Shown here piece after piece: positions 1-16,455 of a stretch of 64,000 nt of DNA. The translations under genes were made by a program, and so were the position numbers. The notes below the pieces were generated by a model. It had not been told where the DNA came from and did no database searches. It saw only the letters and a list, made by a program, of their open reading frames with translations. This DNA comes from Methanobrevibacter ruminantium M1 (GTDB taxonomy: Archaea > Methanobacteriota > Methanobacteria > Methanobacteriales > Methanobacteriaceae), in assembly GCF_000024185.1 (NCBI RefSeq), contig NC_013790.1, positions 1,449,501 through 1,513,500 on the forward strand, given 5' to 3'. Each line of letters begins with the position of its first letter. Position 1 is the stretch's first letter.

Positions 1-2
1 TT

Positions 3-1466
3 GACAATACAAGCACTGAAATAGATAATTTAAAGAAGGAATCAATCAGTCTAAAGCAGGAAATAAAATCATTGGATGAGCCATTGGCTGATATTAAAAA
101 GGTTGAAAACAAATGCCCTGTCTGCCAATCTGAAATTAGTGAAGATAAGAAGAATGAACTTATCAATGGGTATGAGGCCACAATATCTGGCAATACAAAG
201 AGGATAAATGAAATTAATGGGTTTCTCCTTAAATTAAATGAGGATAAATCCTTGAATGAGTCTAAATTAAAGAGCCTTGATTCAATTAAAAACGATATTT
301 ATGCTAATAAGCATATTGTAGATGACCTTGACAAGTCCAATAAGACTCTTGAAACATTGGATGCTAAAATCAAAGAGCTTCAAGGGAAAAAGGAGGAGCT
401 TGAAAGTTTAGATAAAATGATAGAATCCAAAAATGGAGAATTCATTGAACTTGAAGCCCATAATAAGAAATATCTGGAAGCAAGCACTCTTCTTAAGTCT
501 TTCCCTGATGAAACTAAAGTCAAGGATGACTTATATGCAATATATGGCAAGATCAAGACTGAGGATGAAAAGCTTAAAACATATATCAGTTCAGATTCAG
601 AGCTTTCTTTAAATATTACCTTGGAAGAGCTTGATGAGTCAATTGAAAAACTATCCGAAAAGGATAAGAGATATAATATCTTATTAGGTTCAGTTAAAGA
701 TAAGAAAGAGTATGAAGATAAATATGAGAATAAAAAGAAAGAAATCGAATCAAAAACTCAAGAGATTGAGGAGATTAAAAAGCAGATAGAATCTTCCAGC
801 TATGATGAGGAATATTATAATCATGTAAATATCTTGCTTGAAAGGTTAAACAATAAATTCACTTATTATTCTCAGGACATTGCTGTTAAGGAGACTAATC
901 TTGCCAATTTTGAAACTGTAATCAAGAATATTGAAGAGATCATTCAACAGAACAGAGAATATAAGGAAGAGTATATTGCAGTTACCGAATATTATAATCT
1001 CCTTGAGGACTTTAGAAAACTATACAGCAAGGACGGAATTCAAAGGGATCTTAAATCACAATCCAGACCGTTGATTCAGAAGAATACCAAGGATTTCTTT
1101 GATAAGTTCAGCTTCAAGTATTCAGATTTAATCTTGGATGATGACTATAACATTTCTATTTTTGGCCCTGAGGGTGAGGCGAATATAGATATGGTCAGTG
1201 GTGGTGAAAAGATTGCTATAGCTCTTGCTTTAAGATTGGGAATTACTCAAGCCATGTCTAAGGGTAATATTGAAACAATTCTTTTGGATGAGCCTACAAT
1301 TCATTTGGATAGCTTCCGCAGACAGGAGCTGATCAATGTATTGAGGAGCATGTCTATAATTCCTCAAATGATTATAGTCACTCACGATACAGAGCTTGAG
1401 ACTGCTGCCGATACTCTGATTTCAGTTGAAAAAGAAGAGGGAATTTCTAAAATTGAAAATAGTTAA
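3..1466 (+). CDS. rad50: Rad50 ATPase, C-terminal part (5' end outside window)
   Basis: SMC-like ATPase that works with Mre11 in DNA double-strand break processing. The reading frame is open from the first bases of the window, so the gene starts upstream; the TTG at 72 is only an internal codon. The zinc-hook motif CPVC lies at about 114-125, followed by roughly 300 residues of Lys/Glu-rich coiled coil. The C-terminal ATPase lobe carries the signature motif VSGGEK (about 1193), Walker B ILLDEPTIHLD (about 1278) and the H-loop IIVTHD. Family members are about 850-950 residues, so roughly half is visible. Its stop codon lies in the first copy of a 40-bp tandem duplication. In archaea mre11, herA and nurA usually lie upstream, which cannot be seen here. 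Confidence 0.95.
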   Translation, partial: DNTSTEIDNLKKESISLKQEIKSLDEPLADIKKVENKCPVCQSEISEDKKNELINGYEATISGNTKRINEINGFLLKLNEDKSLNESKLKSLDSIKNDIYANKHIVDDLDKSNKTLETLDAKIKELQGKKEELESLDKMIESKNGEFIELEAHNKKYLEASTLLKSFPDETKVKDDLYAIYGKIKTEDEKLKTYISSDSELSLNITLEELDESIEKLSEKDKRYNILLGSVKDKKEYEDKYENKKKEIESKTQEIEEIKKQIESSSYDEEYYNHVNILLERLNNKFTYYSQDIAVKETNLANFETVIKNIEEIIQQNREYKEEYIAVTEYYNLLEDFRKLYSKDGIQRDLKSQSRPLIQKNTKDFFDKFSFKYSDLILDDDYNISIFGPEGEANIDMVSGGEKIAIALALRLGITQAMSKGNIETILLDEPTIHLDSFRRQELINVLRSMSIIPQMIIVTHDTELETAADTLISVEKEEGISKIENS

Positions 1467-1532
1467 AGCAGTAAATAAAATAGTAAAAAACTGTGAAAAT
1501 AGTTAAAGCAGCAAAAAAATAGTAAAAATCTG
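1453..1532. repeat. 40-bp tandem duplication over the rad50 stop codon
   Basis: The stretch GAAAATAGTTAAAGCAG occurs at about 1455 and again 40 bases later, followed by similar AATAGTAAAAA and CTGTGAA segments. The TAA of rad50 lies in the first copy. A T-tract terminator follows. Confidence 0.7.
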
Positions 1533-1587
1533 TGAATATAAAAATAGTTAAAAATAAGTATTTAGTTATTATTTTAATAATTAATAC

Positions 1588-1612
1588 TTATTATTCTTTT
1601 TTTTTTTAATTA
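1588..1612 (+). terminator. T-tract terminator after rad50
   Basis: An uninterrupted run of about 13 T follows CTTATTATTC roughly 120 bases after the rad50 stop. Archaeal RNA polymerase terminates at such oligo-T tracts; there is no hairpin. Confidence 0.5.
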
Positions 1613-1680
1613 ATTGGTCTATTAATTGGTTCATTATTATTTTTCTTAAAAATTAGATTCCAATAAAAAAATAAGATTAT

Positions 1681-2106
1681 TTAAATGTCAAAATCATCAT
1701 CAAAGTCATAATCACCCATTATTATGCTTTTTATATCATCTATAATGCAATTTGCATTCCATCCTACAACGCTTTTAACCTTTTCTTCAAGCTCTTCTGG
1801 AACTATTTCCATACCATAAGGGCGCACTAAAAGCAAAGGAATATCAAATTCTTCTGATTTTTTAATCAAGGTATCAAATAGTTCCTTATTGTCATTGTAA
1901 AGACCAGACAATAAAACGATAATGTCTACTTTAGAAAAGAACTGTTCTCCAAATGGTGCATAGTCTCTTGCAAAGGATTCGGTCCATAAGAAGTCTGGCT
2001 TTGAGTATAATCTTTCTGTAAAGATTTTATATTCATTTTCAGAGTCAATTCCTTGTGTGATTATAAGATTAAATATTTTATTTACTTTTTCATCTTCTTC
2101 AAACAT
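1681..2106 (-). CDS. TIR-like domain protein (MTH538 / DUF1863 family)
   Basis: A 141-residue protein resembling the MTH538-type TIR-like fold (PF08937, the family that also includes the Thoeris component ThsB). The recognised block is the C-terminal half: VDIIVLLSGLY, then LLLVRPYGMEIVPEELEEK and VVGWNANCIIDDI, matching the family pattern 'PI(I/L)xVRPxGxExVPxEL...(I/V)VGWNxxxIxxxI'. The start ATG follows GGTGCTAAT. The C-terminus is a short acidic tail (DYDFDDDFDI). The gene is monocistronic, convergent with rad50 and followed by no close partner. The molecular function is not known; NAD-related or defence activity is possible, but no catalytic Glu could be assigned with certainty. Confidence 0.7.
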   Translation of the reverse strand: MFEEDEKVNKIFNLIITQGIDSENEYKIFTERLYSKPDFLWTESFARDYAPFGEQFFSKVDIIVLLSGLYNDNKELFDTLIKKSEEFDIPLLLVRPYGMEIVPEELEEKVKSVVGWNANCIIDDIKSIIMGDYDFDDDFDI

Positions 2107-2821
2107 ATTAGCACCACTTTTTTAACGATGATTATAATTTTGATAAATTAAATTATTTTTTTTTATTTTTGTTCTTATATTTCTTTTATTTTTTTAAATA
2201 TTAAAGCATTATTATTTTTTTCAAATTTGTATGGGATTATTAATAAAATAATTCTAAAAATTGAAAAAAATTAATAAATGTTTGAAAACTGGTAAAAATT
2301 GTCTCAGAAATAACATTTCAAAAAAAAATTTAGTCGAAAGTGTATAAAAATTAACATTTCATATAAAAATTAGTCACATTTGTATAAAAAATAACATTTC
2401 ATAAAAAAATATCTAAAAAAAATAATCTGAAAAACTTATAGAAATAGTTTAAAATGCAAAATAAGAAAAGTTTGAAAAAGAGAAATAAAAAGAAAGATAA
2501 AAATTAAGTAATTTTTTTATATGGGATAATTGATTTTTTAAATACTTAATTTTTATTCTTTAACTTAAGTTAGAGTCTTACCTTAAAAGGTTATCTTCAT
2601 ATTTATTATATAATTCATTATTTATAAATGTAATGCTAAATACACTAATATTTTTAATTATTTTATCATTTTGATAAATAATAATTCTTGATATATCGAA
2701 TAAAGTTACTTTAATAATCTTTTTTAATATTGGGTAAATTTAATACTATTTATTATAATGTTATTACTAAAATATATTTAAAAAACTATAAATTACATTT
2801 TATTTGTCTTAAATCACTTAA
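2107..2821. repeat. Intergenic region with three ~40-bp repeats
   Basis: No gene is supported in these 715 bases. At 2311, 2352 and 2392 the sequence TAACATTTCA recurs with a period of 40-41, each followed by A-rich sequence, TTAGTC and GTATAAAAA. The segment nearest 2106 should hold the promoter of the TIR-like gene. The remainder is AT-rich without visible structure. Confidence 0.6.
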
Positions 2822-3895
2822 TCAAAAGGATTCTTCATAAATTTTCATTAAAAAACTGGCTAAAGATACTATATCCATACGATTGTGCTCAATTATTGGA
2901 ATCAATGGACCAATATTATTTTCTTTTAAATAGCTTTGATAATAGTCTGGAATAAACGCTCCAGGGACATCATCTTCCCTTTTTATGCCAAACAGATTTT
3001 CTTCAATTGTGGTTAGTTTGCAGTTAGGTAATACATCTTTCCATAGATTGCGAGCCGGATATATAAGGTCGTAGTGTATCTGGTCAAGATTATAGTCCAT
3101 TCTATAATAATGTGCCCTATTCTTGATATATGGTATATCAAAGCTTGCTCCATTATAGGTTACATGAACGCTTGCCTCATCCAGATGGGAAAGGTAAGCC
3201 TCTATCACTGCAGGCTCCTCCTCAATGTCCCTTAGGAGATATTGGTTGGATTCAATCCATTTGCCTTTTATCTCAGCAATTCCAATAAGGATGATAGGGA
3301 CATTTGAAAGCCCTAAAGTTTCTATATCCATAAATTTAAGGTTAAACGGATCAAGGGAGCTTAATGCCTTAAGGGTTCTGTTCTTGTCAATCGGCTGGGA
3401 GTGATCCATAGGATATTTGGATGATTCCTTTAAAAGCTTGAAATCAGATACAAAACAGTTCCTTTCTATCCGATTCAATGCCTTTTGGGCCTTATGGGAG
3501 TATTTGTCATGTTGAAGAAGGTCATAGATTGTATGGTAGTTATTTTCCTTCAGTCTGGATTCGGTTTGATAGCCGATACCTGGAATTAACTTCAAATTTG
3601 AGGAAAGCTCATTCTTTATCTCATCTTTCTTATCCTCTAGGTGAAAGTCTAGCTTTTCCCTTCGCCTAATCCTTAAGGTCTCTCCATAGATGTTTTCAAT
3701 AACTGAACTTCCTTCTATGTCCAAGAGGTCCCAGTCCTTGTATTTGTTCATAAGTCCAAGCTTTAGCTTATTATAGTAAGTTGGGGATGATTTCCTATAC
3801 CTTTCTATGGCCTCTTTAGATGGATGTCCTGAAGATAATGAGTTTGATAGGATGCTTTTAAGGTATCTCTCATGTTCTGCTCTTCGAGATGTCAT
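2822..3895 (-). CDS. DEDD-type exonuclease, MrfB/YprB-like (RNase_H_2 family)
   Basis: Predicted 3'-5' exonuclease of the PF13482 family. Numbered from the upstream TTG at 3910, acidic residues sit at D195-x-E197 (FMDIETLG), D258 (NGASFD) and D346 with H342 (HNRMDI), a DEDDh active site. A helix-hairpin-helix segment (LIPGIGYQTESRL, about residues 108-120) precedes it. An ATG at 3895 (MTSRRAEH) is preferred to the upstream TTG; neither has a strong ribosome site. It is last in a minus-strand cluster behind a 102-residue protein and an MrfA/YprA-type helicase. In Bacillus subtilis MrfA and MrfB act together in repair of mitomycin damage, so an equivalent role is inferred here from family and synteny. 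Confidence 0.85.
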   Translation of the reverse strand: MTSRRAEHERYLKSILSNSLSSGHPSKEAIERYRKSSPTYYNKLKLGLMNKYKDWDLLDIEGSSVIENIYGETLRIRRREKLDFHLEDKKDEIKNELSSNLKLIPGIGYQTESRLKENNYHTIYDLLQHDKYSHKAQKALNRIERNCFVSDFKLLKESSKYPMDHSQPIDKNRTLKALSSLDPFNLKFMDIETLGLSNVPIILIGIAEIKGKWIESNQYLLRDIEEEPAVIEAYLSHLDEASVHVTYNGASFDIPYIKNRAHYYRMDYNLDQIHYDLIYPARNLWKDVLPNCKLTTIEENLFGIKREDDVPGAFIPDYYQSYLKENNIGPLIPIIEHNRMDIVSLASFLMKIYEESF

Positions 3896-3942
3896 TTTAT
3901 CTAGATTCAATCAATATGATAGTGTTACTGTAAACCATAAGT

Positions 3943-4251
3943 TTATTCGTTAAAATAATCAATATGGAAAGTTATATATGTATAAGGCAATTCACAGCAA
4001 GGCACTACATCCCTTGAAGTGATAGTAACGTTTCCATAGCTTTCAAAATAGTCTTCAACCTCTTTTCTAACATCTTTTACCTTATAAGGATCATGAACTC
4101 TAATGTTTCCTAAAAAACTGGTTCCTTTTGATGTTTTCATTACTGAAATTCCATCCATCCTATAAGGAAGTTCATGCTTTTCTAGGATTGCATTAATGTC
4201 TGTTGTGACTTTCTCTTGCAGTTCTTTTCTCTTTTCAGCAGTTAATTCCAT
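3943..4251 (-). CDS. Conserved-looking hypothetical protein between MrfA- and MrfB-like genes
   Basis: A 102-residue soluble protein that I do not recognise. It starts at ATG behind a strong AGGTGAT site. The N-terminus is a charged helix (ELTAEKRKELQEKV). The rest alternates short beta-like segments (ISVMKTSKGTSFLGNIRV, VTITSRDVVP, YTYITFHIDYF) and contains a Cys pair (VVPCCELPY), suggesting a small alpha/beta fold. It lies 104 bases downstream of the helicase gene and about 48 upstream of the exonuclease gene on the same strand, so co-transcription is likely. A role as accessory subunit of an MrfAB-like repair system is inference from position only. Confidence 0.75.
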   Translation of the reverse strand: MELTAEKRKELQEKVTTDINAILEKHELPYRMDGISVMKTSKGTSFLGNIRVHDPYKVKDVRKEVEDYFESYGNVTITSRDVVPCCELPYTYITFHIDYFNE

Positions 4252-4355
4252 ATTATCACCTATTTTTATAATTTAGACTTTTTTAATAAAATTATAAATC
4301 TTTATTTCTATAAATTAACAATTTGATTATAGTTTAATTATCATTTAATAATCAT

Positions 4356-7112
4356 TTAATAACTATTCTTCAACTCAAAGTAAAATTCATTAGCCAATTC
4401 ATGAGCAGGCTCAATAGACAATGCCTTTTTAACAAAGGACAATGCTCCCATACTATCTCCTTGAATAAACAATATCTTACCAATGAGATAATAAGCATCT
4501 GCAGATTGATTGTCATAATTTATGATTATATCAGTTAGAATGTCTTTTGCAATTGAATAGTTTTCCTTATTAAACTCTTCCAATGCCTTTTCATATTCCT
4601 CTTGGGCTTCATCATCTTCTATCTCAATTTCAGCATTATCCGCTTCTCTTTCATCATCTATTTCAATTTCAGCATTATTTGGTTTTTTATCATATTCAAC
4701 TTCAACATCAGAATGTCCATTTAGATTATCATAATCACTGTTTTCAGTATTAATTCTTTCTTCCTCTAATTTAGCAAGGTCCTCTGGGCTTAGCTTATTC
4801 ATCTCATCCCACATATAATCTAAAATATATTCCGTGGCCTTCTTATGAAGTGGCTTATTATCATTGCCGCATTTTGGTGAATAAATGCAAGAAGGACATC
4901 CGTCCTTGCATTCGCAATTCTTAATCAGGTTTCTAGTTGATTTTGTAAGTTCGGTGATTAGGTCAATCGCCTTTTCACAGATTCCTATTCCTCCCTCATA
5001 TCCGTCATAGATGAATATAGTCGCTTCCTGTGTGTCCTCATGGTAATTGGTTGAAAGTCCACCTATATCAAACCTGTCGCACATCACATGAAGGGGGAAG
5101 AGTCCAATCATAGCATGCTCTGTTCCATGAAGGCCTCCTGCAAAGACTTCAGTTTCATCCTTGTAGATTTCTTCAAGCTTGTCCTTAACGCTATCTGGGA
5201 TAGTAAACCAAATTCCTTTAGTGTTGAACTTAAGTGGAGGCAGATCGATTATATATTCTCCAATAACCTTTGAATATTGCATCAGCTTATACTTAAAATA
5301 GTCTTCCTCTACTTCAAGTTCACCGAAATGGACTGTAAACTCTCCTATCCTATGCTTTTTAATCTTTTTGGTAATCTTGATGTTTGTTCTTTTCAATGCT
5401 ATTGTATGGGCTTCCACATCCTTCTTTTTGACAAAGATGAAATGGCTGTCTAGATCAACCTTATTTACAATATAGGTCTGTCCTTGGTTTATCAGCACAG
5501 CTCCCTCGTGGGCTTCCCTGTACATATTGGACTTTTCCATATGCTCTATCACAGTTCTTCCATTCATCACTGTAAATATCTCATTTGAAATCTGGTCTAA
5601 AGAAAAGTTAAAGGATGGGCTGTCATCATATGGATAGATGTAGAATCCTCTGCTTTTTCTTAAATCCCTGTTTCTGACTATATTGTCAAGGAAGTCTTCT
5701 GTAACATTGAATTCCTCTTTTGCTTCCTCTAATGTAAGTGGAAGCTCGTTAGCAGCGCAGATGATATGGTTTTTAAGTAGCTTTTCATTGTTTAGGTCAA
5801 TAACCACATTCTCATGAGGCTTGTCAAAGAAGAATTCCGGGTTTTTCATAAAGTACTGGTCCAGCTGATTCTCGAATGCAACCAAAATGACAAGGGACTT
5901 CTGATTTGTACGGCCGGATCTTCCTCCCTGTTGCCAGGTGGAAATCATGGATCCTGGAAATCCGGATATTATAACAGCATCAAGGCTTCCAATGTTTATT
6001 CCCAATTCAAGGGCATTTGTGGAGGTGACTCCCAAATAGTCTCTGGACTTCAATCCGTCCTCTATCTGCCTTCTGTCCTCTGCCAAGTAACCTGCCCGAT
6101 AGGCTGCAATCTTTTCGACGTTTCGCTTTTTGACCTTTTCCATATCACGTTTTGTCCATAGTGCAATGAGCTCTGCAATCTTTCTGGATGAGGTAAAGCA
6201 TAATGTCTGTATGTCCTTTAAAATCAGATACAGGAATATGCGCTCTGTTTCCATATGGACAGAGCGTGAATACTCATCCATGTCAAATTGGTCCTTGGAA
6301 TCCTTTTTGATTGACTTATATGGATTGTACAATACAAAATCCTTCTCTCCGCTAGGGGAGGAGTCCTCGTCAATGAGTTCAAAACTCTCTCCTGTAAGCT
6401 TCTCTGCAAGTTCCAATGGGTTTGCAAGGGTTGCTGAGGACAATATGAATTTAGGTTCAGAGCCGTAAAACTTTGCAATCCTTTTAAGTCTCCTGATAAG
6501 AAACGCCACATTGGAACCGAAGATTCCCTTATAATAATGGGCCTCATCGATGATGATATACTTTAGGTTTGAGTAGAATCGCTCCCATTGGTGGTGCCAA
6601 GCCAATATATGATGAATCTGGTATGGGTTGGTCAAGATGATGCGAGACTCCTGTCTGATTTTATATCTTTTAGCCTTTGGAGTGTCCCCATCGTAAGGGT
6701 TTGGGTTTAGATCAAGGCCCATCTCATCCTCAAAGTTCCTTAGGACCTTCAATTGGTCGTAGGATAAGGCCTTTGCAGGGTAAATATATAATGCACATGC
6801 ATCATTATCGCTAATAAGTTCCTCTAAGACTGGCAGGTTGAAGGCCAATGTCTTTCCGCTTGCTGTAGGGGTGGTTATTATGATGTTCTTATCTTCTCTT
6901 GTTTTTTCAATAGCCAATGCCTGATGTCTGTAGAGCTTTATCTTCTTATCCTCAAGATATTGGAGAATTCTTTTGTTTAATACATCTACCTTCTTATAGC
7001 TTGCATCTTTCCCTGGAATGGTTTCCACATATTCGATCTTTCTTCTAAAACGAATGTCGTTTTTGAATTGATCGATTTTGCCCATCTGCTTATCTTTGCT
7101 TTCGGTAGACAT
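4356..7112 (-). CDS. DEAH-box helicase with MZB (DUF1998) zinc domain and TPR tail, MrfA/YprA-like
   Basis: A 918-residue SF2 helicase. Walker A TPTASGKT is at residues 81-88, DEAH at 189-192, SAT at 226-228, and motif VI QQGGRSGR at about 394-401. The C-terminal MZB/DUF1998 region has GGIGICEKA and a Cys cluster (CECKDGCPSC...CGN; C733, C735, C739, C742, C748) that fits the zinc site of MrfA. After this come an acidic linker (about 785-838, with the repeated AEIEI segment) and a TPR-like tail (about 839-915), which is not part of the usual MrfA layout as far as I know. It heads a cluster with a 102-residue unknown and the MrfB-like exonuclease. Role: DNA unwinding in repair of helix-distorting or cross-link damage, by family. 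Confidence 0.9.
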   Translation of the reverse strand: MSTESKDKQMGKIDQFKNDIRFRRKIEYVETIPGKDASYKKVDVLNKRILQYLEDKKIKLYRHQALAIEKTREDKNIIITTPTASGKTLAFNLPVLEELISDNDACALYIYPAKALSYDQLKVLRNFEDEMGLDLNPNPYDGDTPKAKRYKIRQESRIILTNPYQIHHILAWHHQWERFYSNLKYIIIDEAHYYKGIFGSNVAFLIRRLKRIAKFYGSEPKFILSSATLANPLELAEKLTGESFELIDEDSSPSGEKDFVLYNPYKSIKKDSKDQFDMDEYSRSVHMETERIFLYLILKDIQTLCFTSSRKIAELIALWTKRDMEKVKKRNVEKIAAYRAGYLAEDRRQIEDGLKSRDYLGVTSTNALELGINIGSLDAVIISGFPGSMISTWQQGGRSGRTNQKSLVILVAFENQLDQYFMKNPEFFFDKPHENVVIDLNNEKLLKNHIICAANELPLTLEEAKEEFNVTEDFLDNIVRNRDLRKSRGFYIYPYDDSPSFNFSLDQISNEIFTVMNGRTVIEHMEKSNMYREAHEGAVLINQGQTYIVNKVDLDSHFIFVKKKDVEAHTIALKRTNIKITKKIKKHRIGEFTVHFGELEVEEDYFKYKLMQYSKVIGEYIIDLPPLKFNTKGIWFTIPDSVKDKLEEIYKDETEVFAGGLHGTEHAMIGLFPLHVMCDRFDIGGLSTNYHEDTQEATIFIYDGYEGGIGICEKAIDLITELTKSTRNLIKNCECKDGCPSCIYSPKCGNDNKPLHKKATEYILDYMWDEMNKLSPEDLAKLEEERINTENSDYDNLNGHSDVEVEYDKKPNNAEIEIDDEREADNAEIEIEDDEAQEEYEKALEEFNKENYSIAKDILTDIIINYDNQSADAYYLIGKILFIQGDSMGALSFVKKALSIEPAHELANEFYFELKNSY

Positions 7113-7646
7113 ATTATCAGTTTCTTTTAATTTAATAGATAAATTAAGGATTTTTATTATTTTGGGCCTTTTAAGAGCTCTATTAAAAAAAATCCACTTC
7201 TTTTTTTAAAAGTTTTATCTTTATAATTTCTTTAATTTTTATCCTTTTTAAAAAATTTTATAACAATTATATATTTGCTTATTTTTCATAATAAAACTTA
7301 TCATTAAGTTCATCATATTTTTCATCAAATTGATTTAATATTGTTATTTTAGTAAAAATATTAGTTTTCACATGCTCTTATGTAATCTTTATAAAGTATA
7401 AATACTAAAAGTAAATATAAGAATTGAAACAAAGTTTTAAGGAATTTTTATAGATTTTAAGATTGATTGAGTATTCATATTTTTAATGCTATATATCACA
7501 CAATTTATTCAAATTTTATTCAATTAATCAATAGTTAATCAGTAGTTAATTATAGAATCTAATTAATTAAATAAGTTTATAAATCATTATTTTAATATTA
7601 TATTGACTAAAAATATTTAAAAGAATTATATTATTGGGGTGATTAT
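7113..7646. other. Divergent intergenic promoter region
   Basis: This region lies between the helicase (minus) and the UvrD helicase (plus) and contains no gene. TATA-like elements are TTTATAAATC at about 7576 and AAATATTTAAAAG at about 7609 for the plus-strand gene; the GTG start has a GGGGTGAT site immediately upstream. A further TTTATAAAG at about 7389 may serve either strand. Confidence 0.4.
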
Positions 7647-10214
7647 GTGATAAGTTACGAAGAATTTGAAAAGCTGGTTGTAGAGATATTAGAAAGGGAT
7701 ATCTCTTCCAATTCAGACCAAAAGGCCGCTATATCTGCTGATAAGTCACAATCCTTATTTATTGTAGCAGGTCCAGGCTCTGGAAAGACTACAGTTATGG
7801 TTTTAAAGATACTTAAATTTATTTTTGTAGATGATGTCCAGCCAAAGGAGATACTTGCAACTACATTTACTAAAAAGGCTGCTTCAGAACTATTATCCCG
7901 TATATTAAGCTGGGGAGATAAGCTTAAGAAAAAAATCCCTGTTTTTATTATGGATAAGGTAATGAATGGGGAAATGGCAGATGGCTCTGTTGTAGATAAG
8001 GTTAGAAAAATCGATTTCAATCAAATCAATGTAGGAACAATAGACAGCATAGCAGATGAGCTCTTAAGGGTCCATAGGGATGCAGGTACAAGCCAGCCTA
8101 TTCTGATTGAGGATTTTGTTGCAAATTCAGTTATGATTAATGAATGTCTTTTAAAGAATGATATGTATTTGCATGAGTCCTTGCAGGAGTATTTGGCTGA
8201 GATAACAGGAAAGGAATCTCAAATTGACCAAAAGCCTAAGGTTAAAAACCTTACAGCCATGGCAGATATCCTCCTTAGCATTAAGGAGCATATATATTAC
8301 AATATGGTTGACATTAATGATATACTGGCTGATACAAAGGATAATGAAAGGGGAAAGAAAATAGCATTGAATCTTATTATGGAATATGAAAAAACCCTTA
8401 GAAGTCAGAATATCTTTGATTTTGCCATGTTAGAGACTGAATTTTTAAACAGATTGAGTTCAGGTAAATTGGATAGCTTTTTAGATGATGTTAAAGTGAT
8501 TTTAGTTGACGAATATCAGGACACCAATCTCCTTCAGGAAAGCATTTACTTTAGGATTGCAGAATCTGCCATTAAAAATGGCGGTAACATTACTGTTGTA
8601 GGAGATGACGACCAATCTTTATACAGATTTAGAGGAGCAAGCGTTGACTTGTTTACCAATTTCATTGAAAGAGTTTCTAGAATTGGCATAGAAGCGAAAG
8701 AGATAAATCTTAAGACAAATTACAGATCAACTGAAAACATCATTGACTTATGCAATGACTTTGTTGAATTGGATGATGAGTATCAGGATGCTCGTGTAAA
8801 GGAAAAGCCTAAAATCGTTTTTCCTAATCTTGATTCTTCTGAAGATACTTCAGAAAATGAATCTCCAGAAGACCTACCTAATGAGGATGAAATAGAAACC
8901 CAAAAGATTCCTGTTTTAGGCATGTTCCGTTCATCTGAAGAAAAGCTTGCAATGGATTTGACTAACTTTTTAGATGAACTAAACAGAAAAGGAAAAGTAA
9001 AGAGAAAAGTAAAGAGAGTCTTAAACAAGGACATCAATAAAAAACTAAATTCAGACAGTGAAGATGCCTTGGAAAGCTATAAGAAGTCTGGCTTTGAGCT
9101 TGCTCAAAGCGAAGGGGAAATCATAATAGAGCTTGATGAGGAGACAGGTTCCATAGATGATGTTGCATTTTTAACATATTCCCCTAAGGAAGTCACTCAT
9201 AACTCTCGCAAATTCCCATTTATTCTTAAAAAACGCTTAGAACACCTTAGAACTCCAATTAGAGTATTCAATCCAAGGGGACAGGATCTGCAGGATATCG
9301 AATCTGTTGCAGTGTTCTGCGGGTTGATGCTTGAATGCATAGATCCAAACTCCTATTACCAGAATTCAAATAAAAAGCTTCCTCGCCTTGCAAGACGAAA
9401 TATGTCTGTATGGAGAAGAAAAGCCCAATCATTCATCAAGGATGTAAATCCAGAGCCTCACTCTCCAATTTCCCTTGAGGATTTCATAATTCATTGGCAG
9501 GTAAGGCAGCCTTTCAATACAAACGGTTCAAAAGACCTGAAATGGCCTAAGGAAGCAGGCCTAATGGAACTTGCTTATAAATTGGTTACTTGGATTGAAG
9601 AGTTTCAGGATGATGACGAAGGACTGGTATACCTAAAGGCGATTACCCAAACAATCAATCAGACAAGCTTCTTTAATAAATACTCTTCAAACATAGTTTT
9701 CACTTCCCATGAGGCTGAAGAGGAATCAATCAATGAGGCATTGATGAACATATTCGTACCTATTGCCGTTGGGGGAGTTAAGATTGATGAAAACCTATTT
9801 GAAGTCATACCTCCAAACAGGTTTAATATAATGTCCATACATCAATCTAAAGGCTTGGAATTTCCTCTTGTGATTGTAGATGTTGGGTCCAGGTTTAAGA
9901 AGAATACGGTAAGGGAATCCAACCTAAGGTTTCCTAAAAAGGCAGACAAGTCATCAATCATTCAGGATAGAATACGAAAATACAGCAGCTTAGGTGAAAG
10001 CGAAAGGGATTCAAAGGATAGGGCCTTTGATGATCTTACCCGACTATACTTTGTTGCATTCTCAAGAGCCAAGGATGTTTTGCTATTAGTTGGTTTAAAT
10101 CCAAATATTGATGGATATAAACAAAAAGATAAATTGCAAAAAATACCTAATGTTGCTTTAGGTTGGAATAGGGATGAAGAATTCATAGGGTTTGATGACA
10201 TTTATTTAATTTAA
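7647..10214 (+). CDS. UvrD/Rep-type SF1A DNA helicase without nuclease domain
   Basis: An 855-residue SF1A helicase with the full motif set: GPGSGKT (42-48), ATTFTKKAA, DEYQDT (288-293), GDDDQSLYRFRGA (about 318-330), TNYRSTEN, the QSKGLEFP region (about 733) and LYFVAFSRAKD (about 803-813). The start is GTG behind GGGGTGAT; the nearby ATG is out of frame. Between motif IV and the 2B region is an acidic, Ser/Glu-rich insert (about residues 385-520). There is no C-terminal nuclease, but the next gene downstream encodes a PD-(D/E)XK nuclease with Fe-S cysteines, giving a split helicase-nuclease pair analogous to AddAB/AdnAB-type machines. The same combination is fused in the 1,546-residue protein at 53.8-58.4 kb. 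Confidence 0.93.
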   Translation: MISYEEFEKLVVEILERDISSNSDQKAAISADKSQSLFIVAGPGSGKTTVMVLKILKFIFVDDVQPKEILATTFTKKAASELLSRILSWGDKLKKKIPVFIMDKVMNGEMADGSVVDKVRKIDFNQINVGTIDSIADELLRVHRDAGTSQPILIEDFVANSVMINECLLKNDMYLHESLQEYLAEITGKESQIDQKPKVKNLTAMADILLSIKEHIYYNMVDINDILADTKDNERGKKIALNLIMEYEKTLRSQNIFDFAMLETEFLNRLSSGKLDSFLDDVKVILVDEYQDTNLLQESIYFRIAESAIKNGGNITVVGDDDQSLYRFRGASVDLFTNFIERVSRIGIEAKEINLKTNYRSTENIIDLCNDFVELDDEYQDARVKEKPKIVFPNLDSSEDTSENESPEDLPNEDEIETQKIPVLGMFRSSEEKLAMDLTNFLDELNRKGKVKRKVKRVLNKDINKKLNSDSEDALESYKKSGFELAQSEGEIIIELDEETGSIDDVAFLTYSPKEVTHNSRKFPFILKKRLEHLRTPIRVFNPRGQDLQDIESVAVFCGLMLECIDPNSYYQNSNKKLPRLARRNMSVWRRKAQSFIKDVNPEPHSPISLEDFIIHWQVRQPFNTNGSKDLKWPKEAGLMELAYKLVTWIEEFQDDDEGLVYLKAITQTINQTSFFNKYSSNIVFTSHEAEEESINEALMNIFVPIAVGGVKIDENLFEVIPPNRFNIMSIHQSKGLEFPLVIVDVGSRFKKNTVRESNLRFPKKADKSSIIQDRIRKYSSLGESERDSKDRAFDDLTRLYFVAFSRAKDVLLLVGLNPNIDGYKQKDKLQKIPNVALGWNRDEEFIGFDDIYLI

Positions 10215-10563
10215 TTAGTCGTTATTTTGATTTAATTATATGAAAAATTGTATTGTGTTTTATTATTAATTAGCATTTTTCAGTTTTTCATAGATTAGAC
10301 TAATCATTATTTTGTTATCATTTTGGATTATTAAATTGGATATTTCATTATAAAATTCAGAAGTATTAAATTTATATTAACTTATATGTTACTTATTAAA
10401 AATTATTAAGTAAATATGAAAGAATAATTAAATTTATATATTACTTATTAAAAATTATTAAGTAAATATGAAAATAATAATTAATATATATAACTTATTA
10501 AAAATCATTAAGCAAATATGAAAAAATATGGTCAATTAGCAGTCATTCAATTAAGGTGTAAAG
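10215..10563. repeat. Three copies of a 21-bp inverted-repeat element
   Basis: Copies of a 21-bp element of the form ACTTATTAAAAATTATTAAGT (one base of which is spaced differently in the third copy) begin at about 10391, 10443 and 10493. Each is followed by AAATATGAAA and an AT-rich spacer, giving a period of 50-52. The outer ACTTA/TAAGT arms are inverted. A related family with a 43-bp period lies at 14191-14340. The region separates the UvrD helicase from its neighbouring nuclease. The nuclease start has a clear AAGGTG site; no second promoter could be assigned with confidence. Confidence 0.7.
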
Positions 10564-11973
10564 ATGAAACTATCAACACGTTCTAAAGAGTATATTATTC
10601 CAGAATATAGTCTAACTGGAGACTTATTGTCCTTTCTCACTTGCAATTTGCAATATCGCTATCAGAATAAGGGAAATCTTCCTCCTTCCATGCCTATTCA
10701 ATTGTGGTTTGGTGAATTTATTCATGGAGTCATGGAAGAGGCTTATTTAAAATGGAATAACCTTAGTGATGAAGAAAAGAAGGATTTCAAATGGGATTGG
10801 GAAAGAGATATAAAGCCTATAGAGGATATAATCACAAAAAGACTTAAGGTAAAAGGCCTTAATCCTCCAATCAATTATACTGAAAATTATGGTCCTAAGG
10901 AAAACATGTACAGTGCCAGAGTGGACAGATCAATAAAGATTTGGGGACCTCATCTCTTTCCATTGATAGAGGATGCTGAAGTTTTGATAAAGGGCATTCG
11001 AGATATGCCTAAGGACAATGAAGGACATTCAAGGTCTGAGTATTATTCTATAAATGGGGTGATAGATGTATTAAGCTCAGTCAAGTTAGATGAGATATAT
11101 TCAATAGAGAATGATTTTAATGGTGATAATGAAAAATCAAAAAATACATTCAAACAAACAACTTTAGATAGTTTCTTTGTTATTGATTCATGTGACATTG
11201 ATAATGTTAGAGATAAATCCTCTAAGAAATCAGGAAATAAAATTTTAGAATATTTGGCTAATAATGAAGAGTTTAAAACTATTCTGGAAAATTTAGAAGA
11301 TGATGAATATGAAATAATTATAGATTATAAGGGTATGAGAAGGCCTAGCGCTCCAAATAAAAATGATATTGATAAAAATAATATTCATTTGTTAAATGAG
11401 GATTCTAATGATGAAAACTCATTGGAAGATTATAAAACTTGGATTCAGCATGAATGGCAAATTTTAACTTATGCTTGGCTAAGATCCATGCAGGAAGATG
11501 CTAAACCAGTTATCTGTGGAATTATTTTCTATCTGAATGAATTGGTTCCTTCTACTGAGGATTTGTTATTGATAAGGGAAGATTTAGAAAACAATAAAAC
11601 GGACATTCCTAGGCAATCCATTCCTAAGGACTGGGAAATATTAAAGAATTGGGATGAAAATGGTCCGAAGGCGATTCACGATGACTTGTCTAAAAAATTT
11701 AAGATGGACCGGTCAATTAGGATAATAAATATAAAGGAAGATTTAATAGATGATTCTCTATTGGAATTTGATGAAGTTGTAAATCAGATAGAAAGCTCTA
11801 TGATTAGGGAATTAAATGGTTCTAAGATTAAGGAAGCTTGGAATGCAAATGCTGAACAGAGAACATGCAATGCTTGTGATTTCAGTACATTTTGTAATAA
11901 AAAAGATTTAGAAGAAAATACTAATGAGAATTCAAATGAAGAAGATAATAAACCTGTTTTTTCAGTTCCTTAA
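10564..11973 (+). CDS. PD-(D/E)XK nuclease with predicted 4Fe-4S cluster (AddB/Cas4-like)
   Basis: A 469-residue protein of the PD-(D/E)XK superfamily. Core motifs are FIHGVMEEA (H54), NGVIDVL (D168), IIIDYKG (D254, K256) and the helix QILTYA (Q299, Y303). Four cysteines, C27 near the N-terminus and C435-x2-C438-x5-C444 at the C-terminus, reproduce the split Fe-S ligand pattern of AddB and related nucleases. The insert between D168 and D254 (about 175-245) is charged and Asn/Asp-rich. The start is ATG behind AAGGTG with 5-base spacing. It follows the UvrD helicase gene on the same strand. Predicted to cut or process DNA ends together with that helicase (inference). Confidence 0.88.
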   Translation: MKLSTRSKEYIIPEYSLTGDLLSFLTCNLQYRYQNKGNLPPSMPIQLWFGEFIHGVMEEAYLKWNNLSDEEKKDFKWDWERDIKPIEDIITKRLKVKGLNPPINYTENYGPKENMYSARVDRSIKIWGPHLFPLIEDAEVLIKGIRDMPKDNEGHSRSEYYSINGVIDVLSSVKLDEIYSIENDFNGDNEKSKNTFKQTTLDSFFVIDSCDIDNVRDKSSKKSGNKILEYLANNEEFKTILENLEDDEYEIIIDYKGMRRPSAPNKNDIDKNNIHLLNEDSNDENSLEDYKTWIQHEWQILTYAWLRSMQEDAKPVICGIIFYLNELVPSTEDLLLIREDLENNKTDIPRQSIPKDWEILKNWDENGPKAIHDDLSKKFKMDRSIRIINIKEDLIDDSLLEFDEVVNQIESSMIRELNGSKIKEAWNANAEQRTCNACDFSTFCNKKDLEENTNENSNEEDNKPVFSVP

Positions 11974-12124
11974 GACAAATTAATAGCTTATTTTTTTTAA
12001 AAAAAGAATTTATGATTTTTAATAAAAAAAGAGTGTATTATATATTTTTATTAAAAAGAGCGTTTATAAATTTTTATTAAAAAGAACTTTTATGAAAAAA
12101 GAAAAAAAGAAATAATTAATAAAA

Positions 12125-12805
12125 TTATTTCATATTTGCAAATGCTTCAATGATTGGTTTTATATTGTCTCTGTGCATACCATAAGCAATTTCTTCATCT
12201 TCTATGCCAGCATATGCTCTTGAACCGCTACAGGCTAAAGTTGCATTAGGCTTGCCGCTAACATAAGGTCCGCTAACTGCATCTGCACATAATGACTGAA
12301 TTCCAGCGAATTTTGCATTGAACATTTCACCGCTATTGTAGACAATAGCTTGAGTGATTCTCATTCCGTTTTTAGGATTTGCAATGACTACAACTACATC
12401 AGGAGCGAAATTAGCTTTTTCCAATGGCGCATATACAATGCCAAAGCTTCTTTCATCCTTTCTATAAATATTGTCAAGAACGCTTTTAGCAGTTTCAATA
12501 GATTCAAATCTGCCTAAATTATAGTATAATTCACCGCTTGCAATCTTAGGAGGAAGATCGATTAATCCCATTGCAGAAGCTCCGCCAGCACATCTTTGCT
12601 CTTCAGCAGTTGAATAGAATGATTCGCCTTTAGCTGCTTTTGTAATCATTTCACAGTGTCTTAATGATTCGTCAATCTTTTCAATACCTTCTGGAACTTC
12701 ACTTTCATCGTTGATGAATTTAACTGCAACAGGCAATCTGCTAAGCTTTAGCTCATCAATAAATATTTTAGAATAATTAGCATTTTCATTAATATCATAA
12801 TCCAT
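12125..12805 (-). CDS. DUF169 family protein
   Basis: A 226-residue soluble protein of the DUF169 family (PF02596), widespread in methanogens and anaerobes. The motifs are RLPVAVKF, a CxxI segment (RHCEMI), EEQRCAGGASAMGL, SLCADAV and TLACSGSRAYAG; the spaced cysteines suggest metal or cofactor binding, but the function is unknown. The ATG start follows GGTGATTAG. The gene stands alone, with A-rich sequence between its end and the nuclease gene that converges on it. Confidence 0.88.
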   Translation of the reverse strand: MDYDINENANYSKIFIDELKLSRLPVAVKFINDESEVPEGIEKIDESLRHCEMITKAAKGESFYSTAEEQRCAGGASAMGLIDLPPKIASGELYYNLGRFESIETAKSVLDNIYRKDERSFGIVYAPLEKANFAPDVVVVIANPKNGMRITQAIVYNSGEMFNAKFAGIQSLCADAVSGPYVSGKPNATLACSGSRAYAGIEDEEIAYGMHRDNIKPIIEAFANMK

Positions 12806-13247
12806 CTAATCACCATAAACTGAATAATTAATACTATATTTTTTTATTATAGTATATTAAAGTTATGAATTATTATTCATATCTCTTTTTTAAAATCTAA
12901 TAATTAATTCTCTTAGATTTATCTGAATATAGAATAAATCATTTTATTTATTTTATTCTTATATGTATTAATATATAGTAGTTATTTTTGAAAAATATTG
13001 TTTAAAAAGAATTTTTTTAATGATTTTCCTATAATTTAAAGTTATTTACTTATAATATTTATTTAAAAAATTTATTATCTGTTTAAAAAACTTTATATTG
13101 TTTAAAATATAATATTATATTGTTTATAAAAATTAAAATTATTTAATTAATTTTACAATATTAATAGACCTAATTTATTGAGATTATTTAATTAATTTTA
13201 CAATATTAATAGACACTATTTTAATTGAAATTATAGGAAGAAAAATA
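12806..13247. repeat. Divergent intergenic region with a 32-bp direct repeat
   Basis: This lies between the DUF169 gene (minus) and the ExoIII gene (plus). A 32-bp sequence beginning ATTATTTAATTAATTTTACA occurs at 13138-13169 and again at 13183-13214 (period 45). A TATA-like TTTATAAAAATT lies at about 13122, just before the first copy, so the duplication lengthens the promoter-to-start distance of the ExoIII gene. No gene is visible. Confidence 0.55.
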
Positions 13248-13988
13248 ATGAGCAATTTGAAAATTATTTCATGGAATGTAAATGGCATAAGGACTAGGAT
13301 AAAAAATAAGGACATCAATCCTGTTTTAGAGAAAGAGCCTGATATTATTTTATTCCAAGAGACTAAAGCTAGCTATGAGCAAATGGATAAGAAATTCTTA
13401 AATAAGAATCCCTATGATTATTATTTCTTAAAAGGTGAAAGCGCTAGGACTGGCGGACTAGCAAGCTTTACCAATATTGTACCTAAAATAATCAAAAGAT
13501 TCTTTATTAAATCTCAAGATGCATTCCATAGGGCATGTGTATTGGATTTTGAAGACTTTACATTAATTCATATTTATGCACCTGCTGGAACTGGTAAAAA
13601 AGCTAATTTTAATCAAAAATTAGATTATTTCAACAGTCTATTAAAATATGTAGAAAAGAATAAGGACAAGAATTTGATTATTGCAGGTGACTTTAATATT
13701 GCTCATAATGATATAGACATATCCAACAAGGACACTAAAGTTAGCTTCACCGATGAAGAAAGATCTGTTTTAGATAAACTTGAATCATTTGGATTTGTAG
13801 ATGCCTTAAGATTATTCAATGAAGAAGAATCTTTTTCATACTGGAAAAATAAGGAAGAAAACGATGGTGCACGTTTAGATTATTTCTTTGTTTCTGAATC
13901 TCTTAAGGATAAGGTTAAATCTTCTTCTATATTAGTTGATGTTGAAGGTTCTAAACATCTTCCTATTGAACTTGAAATTGAGATTTAA
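13248..13988 (+). CDS. xth: Exonuclease III family AP endonuclease
   Basis: A 246-residue base-excision-repair enzyme that cuts DNA at abasic sites. Family motifs are SWNVNGIRTR, ILFQETK (catalytic Glu), GDFNIAHNDIDI (Asp/Asn), GARLDYFFVS, and a C-terminal SKHLPIEL. In most relatives this last motif is SDHxP(I/V); here Lys replaces the Asp before the catalytic His. The homologue Mth212 of Methanothermobacter also cuts at uracil; whether this one does is unknown. Start ATG is preceded by AGGAAG. It is monocistronic, with a T-rich 3' flank. Confidence 0.93.
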   Translation: MSNLKIISWNVNGIRTRIKNKDINPVLEKEPDIILFQETKASYEQMDKKFLNKNPYDYYFLKGESARTGGLASFTNIVPKIIKRFFIKSQDAFHRACVLDFEDFTLIHIYAPAGTGKKANFNQKLDYFNSLLKYVEKNKDKNLIIAGDFNIAHNDIDISNKDTKVSFTDEERSVLDKLESFGFVDALRLFNEEESFSYWKNKEENDGARLDYFFVSESLKDKVKSSSILVDVEGSKHLPIELEIEI

Positions 13989-14160
13989 TTTTATTTTTTA
14001 ATTTTCTATAATTTACTTGTTTATTTTTTATTAAACTTTATTCTTTTTTCTTAATTTTTTTTTATCTTTTTTTTATTTTTTCCATTAATTTTTTTCTAAT
14101 TTTTTTTATCTTTTTTGCTATTCTATTTTTTCTTTTTTCTTTCTTTTCTTTCAACTTTAT
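13989..14160 (+). terminator. Long T-rich tract after the ExoIII gene
   Basis: About 170 bases of C/T-rich plus-strand DNA with many runs of 5-8 T follow the stop codon directly. This is consistent with archaeal oligo-T termination. Confidence 0.5.
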
Positions 14161-14190
14161 TTTTCTCATTATACCTTAAAATTATATATA

Positions 14191-14340
14191 ACTTAATAAT
14201 AATTAATAAGTAATTTAATAAATAATATATATTACTTAATGAAATATAATAAGTAAATTAATTAATAATATATATTACTTGATGATAATCAATAAGTAAA
14301 TTCAATATTATTATAATATACTTAATGAAATTCATTAAGT
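14191..14340. repeat. 43-bp tandem array of a 21-bp palindrome, four copies
   Basis: Palindromic elements start at 14191, 14234, 14277 and 14320, exactly 43 bases apart. The last copy is a perfect 10-bp-arm palindrome, ACTTAATGAA-A-TTCATTAAGT; the others deviate by a few bases, and the first is one base shorter. The 22-base spacers resemble each other (AAATTAATTAATAATATATATT type), so this is a satellite and not a CRISPR. It lies between two convergent genes, which argues against a promoter role. Confidence 0.75.
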
Positions 14341-14425
14341 AAAAATTTAAAATAATAATTATAAAGAATCTTTTTAGTAAAAAATATTATAAAATAAGTA
14401 AATAAATATCCGATTTATAAAAGCA

Positions 14426-15082
14426 TCATAACAAGCTTTCATAATCTGAATAATAATTTATATTAATTAACTCATCAGGATGATTCTCTTCAACTCCATA
14501 AAATTCAAAGCCATCTGCAAAGATTTCTCTTAATATTGGATTTAAATTGTCATCCTTGTCTTTAATATAATCAATTAATTCACATCTGCTTGCAGCAAAA
14601 GGCATCCCTAATCCTTTAGCAGTGTCTAATTTACCAATATCCAAACGTCTTAAAACAGAAATGGTCTTATTAGGATTGGAAGAATTTAAAATAGAATCTA
14701 AAATATTATTAAAAGTAGTTGAACTGACAGTTGGTTGATCTGCAGTTACACAAAGGGCGATGTCTGAATTTATATTATTTAATCCATTTAATAAAGAGAC
14801 AGATAATCCTACATCAATAGGATTATTCATGACTATCTTTATTCTTTCATCATCAATATCCTTAATTAAAGGTAATATTTCGCTGCTATAATGACCTAAT
14901 ACAATTGCACATTCTTCTATACCCTTTGTATTCAATACATTATCAATTGTTGTTTCTATAACAGTTTTTGATTTAAAGGGGAGTGTAAGCTTATTCTGCA
15001 ACGGAAGATTCCTTTTCTCTTGATCTTGTCTCATTCTAGAATTTTTTCCTGCTGCAGTTATGACTGCTGAAACACTTAGCAT
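14426..15082 (-). CDS. MobA-like nucleotidyltransferase
   Basis: A 218-residue NTP-transferase domain protein (MobA/IspD superfamily). The N-terminal signature VITAAGKNSRM corresponds to the family's (L/A)AGxSxRM, followed by KLTLPFKSKTVIE. The metal-binding acidic segment is CVTADQPTV. Members transfer GMP or CMP to molybdopterin or activate sugars and other compounds; which substrate applies cannot be told. The ATG has an AGGTAAT ribosome site. No molybdopterin genes are next to it. Confidence 0.8.
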   Translation of the reverse strand: MLSVSAVITAAGKNSRMRQDQEKRNLPLQNKLTLPFKSKTVIETTIDNVLNTKGIEECAIVLGHYSSEILPLIKDIDDERIKIVMNNPIDVGLSVSLLNGLNNINSDIALCVTADQPTVSSTTFNNILDSILNSSNPNKTISVLRRLDIGKLDTAKGLGMPFAASRCELIDYIKDKDDNLNPILREIFADGFEFYGVEENHPDELININYYSDYESLL

Positions 15083-15225
15083 AATATTACCTAAAATTAA
15101 ATATTAAATATTAAGGATGAATATTCAGTATAATTGTTTTTTTTTAATAGATTAAAGTTTTTCTACTATTTAAACTAAAAATTATATTAAATTAAATCAA
15201 AGTATATTTTTAACTAGTTTTTTTT

Positions 15226-16455
15226 CTAAATAGTAGTTCCTGTTTCTGTACTGTTGGTAGTGGTTACATTATTTGGAATATATTCAACTACATCTGCATA
15301 TATTGCCATTCCAGTACCGGCACCTTCAGTCCACATATTGATTTGTATAGGATAGTCAAGAGTGTTGGTAACTCTGATTCCAGTTGAAGGACTGTATCCA
15401 AAGAGTACAGCATCTTCACCATAATCCATACCTACAGGCAAACTGAATCCTAAAGCTAATACAGCATTTCTTAAAGCTCTTGCTGGAGGACATACACCGT
15501 GTGTAGCCATTCCAGACTGTGCATTTGCTTCTTTAACAGCACTGAAATAAACTCCTTCCCTTCCACATCCAGAGGTATTTGCAGGAATTACAGTTCCATT
15601 CCATGCTGTAACGAATTGTCTGGCATTATATTCTCTGTTTGCATCGTTATATTGAGGGTGTGAACCTAAGTATGTATAGGTGCTGCTTACAACAGTGCTA
15701 TTTACATTGTCTTTATAAAGAATTACTGGAGAGCCTCCAGGGTATTTGATTGAATAGTTATAAGCTTCAGGGAATTTCTCTTTAAGCTCAGTTGGAGTAA
15801 TGTATGAACGGTTATCGTTAAGACCGTCAATACAGAATTCTATATTGTATTTGGAACCAACTTGTGATGTATTATACCAATATTTTATTGTCTCTTCACT
15901 TACCATGTCTCCTGGAAGAGTGTCATTAGTTATGTCATTGGCATTAATGTGTTTTATGGTTTCATTTGTCTTGTTGTTAATGATGTCAATACCACCTTCA
16001 ACAATCACCGCTTGTGTGTATGGGGTATTGAATCCATATAAAAAGTTTCCAGGTTCAACAATGTTGATCTGGTCTTTTTCAATATCGATATAAGCAGGAC
16101 CTTTGATTCCTTGAATCTCGCCGGATTTAGTAATGTTTCCGGTTACAAGTTCAGATGCAGGGGTAGGTACCACTCCTGTGGATATTGAGAAGAATGCATC
16201 TGCAATGTCTCCTCTTAAGATTTGATCAGTCAATGCACCTATATCTGAAACTATAGGGTACTTGTTTATTTTGTTTTTGTCAATTATGTTATCTCCATTG
16301 AAGACAGTGGATCCATTCTCATATTTGGAAATTTCAGCCATGTTTTGAGTATTATGGTGACTTGTCATTGCCATGGAGATAGGTATTAGTAAAATTATTA
16401 TTACAATTAATGCAATAAAAATCTTAAAAGATGTTTTTTTGAATAATCTTGGCAT
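15226..16455 (-). CDS. Membrane-anchored protein with VanW-like C-terminal domain
   Basis: A 409-residue protein with one N-terminal membrane segment (FKIFIALIVIIILLIPISMA, about residues 11-30) and a large extracytoplasmic part. The C-terminal portion has THGVCPPARALRNAVLALG followed by DAVLFGYSP and NTLDYPIQINMW. This matches the VanW pattern (GGxCQxSTTLYNAVLxAG, then DATVxYG and NNTDYPIxI). VanW proteins are cell-envelope proteins of unclear activity. The start ATG follows GGGAGTG. The next gene upstream on the same strand is a Mur ligase, consistent with a cell-wall role. The family assignment rests on pattern only. Confidence 0.6.
   Translation of the reverse strand: MPRLFKKTSFKIFIALIVIIILLIPISMAMTSHHNTQNMAEISKYENGSTVFNGDNIIDKNKINKYPIVSDIGALTDQILRGDIADAFFSISTGVVPTPASELVTGNITKSGEIQGIKGPAYIDIEKDQINIVEPGNFLYGFNTPYTQAVIVEGGIDIINNKTNETIKHINANDITNDTLPGDMVSEETIKYWYNTSQVGSKYNIEFCIDGLNDNRSYITPTELKEKFPEAYNYSIKYPGGSPVILYKDNVNSTVVSSTYTYLGSHPQYNDANREYNARQFVTAWNGTVIPANTSGCGREGVYFSAVKEANAQSGMATHGVCPPARALRNAVLALGFSLPVGMDYGEDAVLFGYSPSTGIRVTNTLDYPIQINMWTEGAGTGMAIYADVVEYIPNNVTTTNSTETGTTI

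Follow-up and report, generated by a model that had tools for sequence, protein, structure and literature searches.

A UvrD-type helicase and a separate PD-(D/E)XK nuclease beside the end-resection genes of Methanobrevibacter ruminantium M1, with relatives encoded beside DpdA

Introduction

Archaeal end resection has been described around Mre11-Rad50 and HerA-NurA. In Methanobrevibacter ruminantium M1, a stretch of 64,000 nucleotides (NCBI RefSeq assembly GCF_000024185.1, contig NC_013790.1, positions 1,449,501 to 1,513,500 of the forward strand; hereafter the window) carries, close to these genes, one gene for a superfamily 1A (SF1A) helicase of UvrD type and another for a PD-(D/E)XK nuclease, which raises the question of whether the two form a further DNA-end-processing machine resembling AddAB of Bacillus or AdnAB of Mycobacterium, and where such a machine might have come from. 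A first-pass annotation, made from the letters of the window, had proposed a machine of this kind; what it observed is confirmed here, and how it interpreted the observation is partly supported. The reading that we prefer, with a probability of roughly 0.55, is that the pair is the DNA-degrading arm of a Dpd-like modification system that was domesticated as a two-part DNA-end-processing machine within a break-repair island. The link to DpdA from which this origin derives was invisible to the author of that annotation from the sequence alone and was an unexpected finding of the follow-up analysis.

A motor and a nuclease on separate polypeptides

The helicase matches PF00580 (E 3.6e-49) and PF13361 (E 8.5e-13), with motifs I to VI at residues 42, 288, 319, 358, 732, and 800. 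These motifs are kept across an alignment of 81 rows, two of which are truncated at motif I, with rare substitutions at a few positions. The annotated absence of a nuclease from this complete motor was borne out, in that a domain search of the 855 amino acids (aa) found no nuclease domain and the structure model ends at the motor. The nuclease likewise carries its four cysteines exactly where they had been placed (C27, C435, C438, and C444), and these are putative iron-sulfur (Fe-S) ligands. Its catalytic motifs are H54, D168, D254-x-K256, and Q299-xxx-Y303, with an insert of variable length (about residues 172-250) between D168 and E250. Loss of catalytic residues in homologues, which the annotation had named as a sign against its proposal, was not seen: C27, H54, E87, D168, D254, K256, Q299, and Y303 are invariant in 101/101 distinct nuclease open reading frames (ORFs). 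Among the rows extending far enough, C435 and C438 are cysteine in 94/94 and C444 in 93/93; the eight rows without at least one C-terminal cysteine are ORFs cut by the end of a locus or contig or, in locus L133, by a frameshift. Some near-duplicates and truncated ORFs are omitted from alignments A1 and A2.

The nuclease model (mean predicted local distance difference test score, pLDDT, 72) finds its best structural match in the AddB nuclease domain (Z 12.2, root-mean-square deviation [rmsd] 4.9, 270 residues). ACE1, an Argonaute-associated nuclease of Cas4 type (Z 12.1, rmsd 4.2, 242 residues), and AdnA (Z 11.3, rmsd 4.1, 229 residues) count as tied with it, and Cas4 (Z 10.1) and Dna2 (Z 9.9) follow. 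AddB is matched solely over its residues 785-1143. Queried by sequence alone, either as a single sequence or as the A3 profile, the nuclease had no match among solved structures. The helicase model (pLDDT 83) resembles UvrD, PcrA, and Rep at Z 26-28 over 375-537 residues (UvrD, Z 27.4 over 465 residues), and is matched over longer stretches by AdnB (Z 25.9, rmsd 4.2, 621 residues) and AddA (Z 21.6, rmsd 4.8, 635 residues). These fold matches equate the pair with an AddA motor and an AddB nuclease, lacking the Chi-reading half of AddB and the nuclease of AddA.

As modeled, the pair would work like a stripped-down AddAB, yet it is no member of that family. Shared with AddAB and AdnAB are an SF1A motor of AddA/AdnB build with all six motifs intact, aligned over 621-635 residues, and a nuclease that follows AddB in its fold and in the layout of its four cysteines, the cluster itself being putative. 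Unlike AddAB, the motor and nuclease are separate proteins, the C-terminal RecB-type nuclease of AddA is absent from the helicase, and the inactive N-terminal helicase of AddB that reads Chi is missing, no helicase domain being present in the 469-aa nuclease. Of the proposed AddAB/AdnAB-like machine the folds therefore stand and the membership does not. Because the AddB Chi-reading half and the AddA nuclease are both absent, canonical Chi control is not expected; Chi control of the AddA/AddB type was rejected for want of a module to carry it, and no search for Chi-like motifs was made.

Dna2 and Bad are single polypeptides with a superfamily 1B (SF1B) motor. A Dna2/Bad-like machine for processing flaps and forks, split here over two genes, would share the four-cysteine layout around a RecB-type nuclease, the cluster in the present case being putative, and Dna2 is among the nuclease fold matches. 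We regard it as improbable: the motor encoded here is separate and of UvrD/AddA/AdnB-type SF1A rather than SF1B, and AddB, ACE1, and AdnA all outscore Dna2. Assignment to CRISPR Cas4 was rejected (16.8 bits against the NCBIfam cas4 cut-off of 65), and no cas genes were recognized among the neighbors examined. Gabija also encodes a UvrD-type helicase with a nuclease, and the best PADLOC matches of the helicase are to GajB; GajA, however, is an OLD/TOPRIM nuclease, whereas the partner here is PD-(D/E)XK.

Conservation of the pair in Methanobacteriaceae

Among 138 Methanobacteriaceae genomes, the nuclease is found in 111 and the helicase, counted at E up to 1e-60, in 127. The nuclease is absent from 13 further genomes sampled from the phylum outside the family (the same 111, of 151 overall). 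The difference between the two counts is due mainly to one genus, g3, which is probably Methanosphaera and has the helicase in 18/20 genomes and the nuclease in 0/20. In the 118 family genomes outside g3, both genes are present in 107, the nuclease alone in four (three of them fragments), the helicase alone in two, and neither in five (Fisher p 1.4e-5). The co-occurrence put up for testing at first pass holds for the family outside g3, and the independent distribution that would have spoken against it is seen in that one genus. One of the 107 genomes (G066) has many stops in both genes, i.e., joint decay of the pair.

Wherever both genes occur in one locus they lie on the same strand with the helicase first (76/76 loci, spanning archaea, bacteria, plasmids, and a virus), and the median gap is 11 bp, against 349 bp in the window. 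This uniform strand and order make the adjacency more than a chance neighborhood. That the two are independent housekeeping enzymes, adjacent and nothing more, would agree with the helicase-only genomes of g3, with the separation of the genes in genus g4, and with the wide gap in the window. It is nevertheless the least probable of the explanations considered, given the operon-like spacing across such different replicons, the joint absence and joint decay, and the retention of both genes in 4/6 g4 genomes despite their separation.

The helicase loci of g3 inspected were L060, L144, and L145, and in one genome (G035) the frame is broken close to its start. A divergent nuclease beside the g3 helicase was considered and rejected, none being found in L144 or L145. 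PF12705 proteins are present elsewhere in g3 genomes, none of them demonstrated as a partner of the helicase.

Relatives outside the family are encoded with DpdA

DpdA is the transglycosylase that places 7-deazaguanine in DNA. Among the best 80 of 123 relatives found by scanning named genomes, eight loci are labeled as other archaea or bacteria. Two of these (L134 and L136) have the operon DUF6884 - UvrD - nuclease - DpdA, and two others (L137 and L132) UvrD - nuclease - DpdA, the contig of L132 opening with the last part of a DUF6884 gene and breaking off within DpdA. In L140, DUF6884, UvrD in frameshifted pieces, and the nuclease lie at the end of a contig; in L133, a queuosine-precursor transporter lies downstream of the pair. 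The DpdA proteins of the pair loci score 419-434 bits against NCBIfam NF041059 (cut-off 200). The available part of the GATOR-GC paper gives DUF6884 as the DpdC domain (PMC11888242). Three plasmid records carry the pair, all three with DpdA: Bradyrhizobium pB41S5 (dpdA, two dpdB, queC, queD, and queE), a plasmid of Picosynechococcus (dpdA and NurA), and a plasmid of Rhizobium WYJ-E13 (DpdA and DpdB). A virus record (G462) has DUF6884-UvrD-nuclease with DpdA elsewhere on the contig; phage records searched with two nuclease queries gave no match. On the Picosynechococcus plasmid (L191), positions 1468-4488 encode an annotated NurA and an ATP-binding protein that is weakly HerA-like.

Taken together, 14 records outside the family include 11 with a full DpdA (8/11 outgroup records and the three plasmids) and one in which the contig end truncates DpdA; DpdA was not found in the remaining two (L133/G163 and L140/G169). 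Of 294 genomes sampled together, seven match the nuclease profile at E up to 1e-6 and 12 have DpdA over the cut-off, with six in common (Fisher p 7.5e-9). Four of the nuclease matches are strong; three of these genomes have DpdA (p 2e-4), and in the fourth the contig stops within the nuclease. Because the sampled genomes are related, these p values serve as a guide only. Within Methanobacteriaceae, DpdA over the cut-off was found in 0/138 genomes, that of the window included; weak matches reach 35 bits in frames of about 650-700 aa, and by inference these are probably the tRNA transglycosylase TgtA.

The association extends beyond this one type of pair. A distant helicase (about 750 aa) with a PF12705 nuclease (about 315 aa) abuts DpdA in G168, G400, and the virus record G462, and a similar nuclease with a helicase fragment lies beside DpdA in G167. 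In a haloarchaeal genome, UvrD and nuclease are fused into one protein of 1048 aa, with QueC and DpdA encoded a few kilobases away. Since the second pair type adjoins DpdA and the haloarchaeal fusion lies near it, UvrD-nuclease modules recur with DpdA. The loci of the second type are L206, L210, L211, and L212, the contig of L211 having a helicase fragment only, and both types occur together in a virus record and in one bacterial bin.

Classical Dpd islands carry a dpdD-K restriction operon, as described in the available part of PMC11888242. The relatives of the pair are likewise encoded with DpdA, DpdC-like DUF6884, DpdB, and QueC/D/E, but there the pair occupies the place of dpdD-K, and the genome of the window is without DpdA. 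A literature search, which did not cover the core Dpd papers, found no link between DpdA and a UvrD-nuclease pair, and the sole co-mention of DpdA and UvrD within the same coverage concerns an unrelated phage. A UvrD-nuclease arm is not named in the GATOR-GC paper (PMC11888242) or in BREX literature, as far as the available portions of these sources go.

Trees built from hand-picked rows (33 for the nuclease and 31 for the helicase) place those of Methanobacteriaceae in one clade nested among DpdA-linked ones, with support of 99/99 (nuclease) and 98/99 (helicase). The alphaproteobacterial and cyanobacterial plasmid copies branch deeper, and the second pair type lies across the deepest split. 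In the helicase tree, the row for g3 sits on a long branch (1.91) of unsure placement. Read with the gene contexts, the trees suggest a DpdA-linked origin, passage via defense islands, and domestication in a repair island.

The repair island

Immediately upstream of the window (L168) lie NurA, HerA, and a Mre11-like phosphoesterase (PF09376, PF01935/PF09378, and PF00149), followed by Rad50, which continues into the window ahead of the MrfB-like, MrfA-like, and paired genes (Table 1). The same gene set, partly rearranged, is carried by other genera. Counted over sufficiently flanked loci among 72 from Methanobacteriaceae, the MrfA-like gene is divergent and on the opposite strand in 45/48, and Rad50 falls inside the downstream flank in 34/41.

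Table 1. Features of the window at and around the helicase-nuclease pair
Position	Strand	Feature	Remarks
72..1466	+	Rad50, C-terminal part	zinc hook, SMC ATPase; gene starts before the window
1681..2106	-	Homologue of MTH538 (1eiw, solved protein), 141 aa	E 4e-11
2822..3910	-	MrfB-like exonuclease	RNase_H_2, PF13482 E 2.4e-35
3943..4251	-	Conserved 102-aa protein	between the MrfB-like and MrfA-like genes
4356..7112	-	MrfA/YprA-type SF2 helicase	TIGR03817, PF09369; oriented divergently to the UvrD gene
7647..10214	+	SF1A (UvrD-type) helicase	GTG start, 855 aa; motifs and Pfam domains
10376..10528		AT-rich repeat, 3 copies of 52 bp	inside the 349-bp helicase-nuclease gap
10564..11973	+	PD-(D/E)XK (RecB/AddB-type) nuclease	ATG start, 469 aa; PF12705 E 1.1e-7

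Because NurA, HerA, Mre11-like, Rad50, and MrfA/MrfB-like genes adjoin it, the pair adds to the archaeal resection set. HerA-NurA and Mre11-Rad50 belong to the same island, but their motor and nuclease folds are unrelated to those of the pair. The notion that the pair replaces HerA-NurA was rejected, NurA being found in 15/15 genomes tested. Of the first-pass view of a machine separate from these two systems, the additional character has held and any role as a substitute has not.

A different explanation is that in Methanobacteriaceae the pair is still a defense enzyme that degrades foreign or unprotected linear DNA, in an island that merely tolerates such modules. Relatives beyond the family all lie in DpdA (modification/restriction) loci, on plasmids, or in a virus, and early-branching copies within it adjoin DrmD/BrxH-like, DinG-like, NERD-UvrD, and LmuB-like genes. 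Defense systems are patchy, however, whereas the pair is single-copy and kept in most family genomes outside g3; its position with NurA-HerA-Mre11-Rad50-MrfAB is fixed in the main clade, and no DpdA was found in the family to act as its modification partner. We consider a continuing defense role unlikely, although less so than the other alternatives.

Several side observations concern this neighborhood. The MrfA/MrfB-like genes at 2822-7112 (-) represent mitomycin-repair-type genes of B. subtilis near Rad50 in an archaeon. The MTH538 homologue stays beside Rad50 in many genera. In L173 (genus g13), Mre11-like and LmuB/SMC-like ATPase genes at 3521-7428 lie directly upstream of UvrD-nuclease, apparently in one operon. 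An Rfam scan of window positions 1-16000 gave zero matches.

Proposed function and origin

The preferred reading, domestication of a Dpd-like degrading arm, envisages one two-part machine in which an SF1A motor of 3'-5' polarity is paired with an Fe-S nuclease on its own polypeptide. Loading where a duplex ends or is gapped, the motor would unwind DNA as it runs 3'-5'; the nuclease would cut the strand so displaced, which on the model of AddB is the 5'-ended strand, and a 3' single-stranded tail would be left for RadA. Polarity, strand choice, and the RadA tail are the most likely course by analogy with characterized members of these families. The origin would lie in compact 7-deazaguanine (Dpd-like) systems in which self DNA carries the mark set by DpdA and the pair destroys DNA without it, the stop signal for degradation in DpdA hosts being perhaps the modified base. 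After entry into Methanobacteriaceae, the DpdA partner would have been lost and the pair recruited to break repair beside the standard resection genes.

A wider proposal, which we put forward more tentatively and at slightly under even odds, is that, across archaea, bacteria, plasmids, and a virus, the UvrD-Fe-S PD-(D/E)XK pair constitutes an alternative restriction arm of compact 7-deazaguanine systems. Methanobacteriaceae would have captured it and, with DpdA lost, would now use it as a fixed AddAB-like break-repair enzyme, making it a defense nuclease domesticated for archaeal homologous recombination. An added second UvrD-nuclease pair would sometimes give such an arm two motors and two nucleases, like AddAB/AdnAB.

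Several points weigh against the preferred reading. The nuclease model returned nothing from Foldseek at E 0.001 or better. The g3 helicases are shorter (about 735 aa), fast-evolving, and free of the nuclease, and their persistence alone in 18/20 genomes indicates that the helicase is able to work in its absence. Where genomes of the Methanovirga-type genus g4 have both genes, these lie apart. The early-branching copies of g13 (L173) and g17 (L174) sit among defense-like genes outside the repair island, their neighbors encoding a Mre11-like protein, a LmuB/SMC-like ATPase, DinG-like and NERD-UvrD proteins, and DrmD/BrxH-like helicases. The history itself we infer, because the trees have a midpoint root, the nuclease tree lacks resolution just below the Methanobacteriaceae clade, and many DpdA-linked rows are metagenome bins; several of the DpdA-linked loci are such bins, whose names may be wrong.

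The split into two genes has in itself a precedent, since an unfused operon in Clostridiales has been described alongside UvrD-Cas4-like fusions found both in bacteria and in mesophilic archaea, according to the part of that work available (Hudaiberdiev et al., 2017; PMC5704561). Those operons also combine a UvrD-type helicase with a pfam12705 nuclease; unlike here, the available part of that paper makes no mention of Methanobrevibacter, DpdA, or a NurA-HerA-Mre11-Rad50 neighborhood, and the Clostridiales operon is compared by description only. No paper combining AddAB, archaea, UvrD, nuclease, and Methanobrevibacter was found in the literature searched. Archaeal helicase-nucleases are not rare in the genome of the window, because two UvrD-nuclease fusions are present in it: one of 1546 aa, in which a PD-(D/E)XK nuclease follows the UvrD helicase at the C terminus, at window positions 53800-58440 (-), and a second fusion at genome positions 1567102-1570230 (frame 1574 aa). 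The window also contains a very long ORF of 2632 aa at 21352-29250 (+).

Conclusion

As an AddAB-like pair conserved in most Methanobrevibacter-type methanogens, the helicase and nuclease are a candidate third player in archaeal end resection. The link with DpdA provides a testable candidate for the destruction of unmarked DNA in 7-deazaguanine-marked cells that lack the dpdD-K operon, and in at least one virus record, while the history of the pair would illustrate a possible route from a defense enzyme to a repair enzyme.

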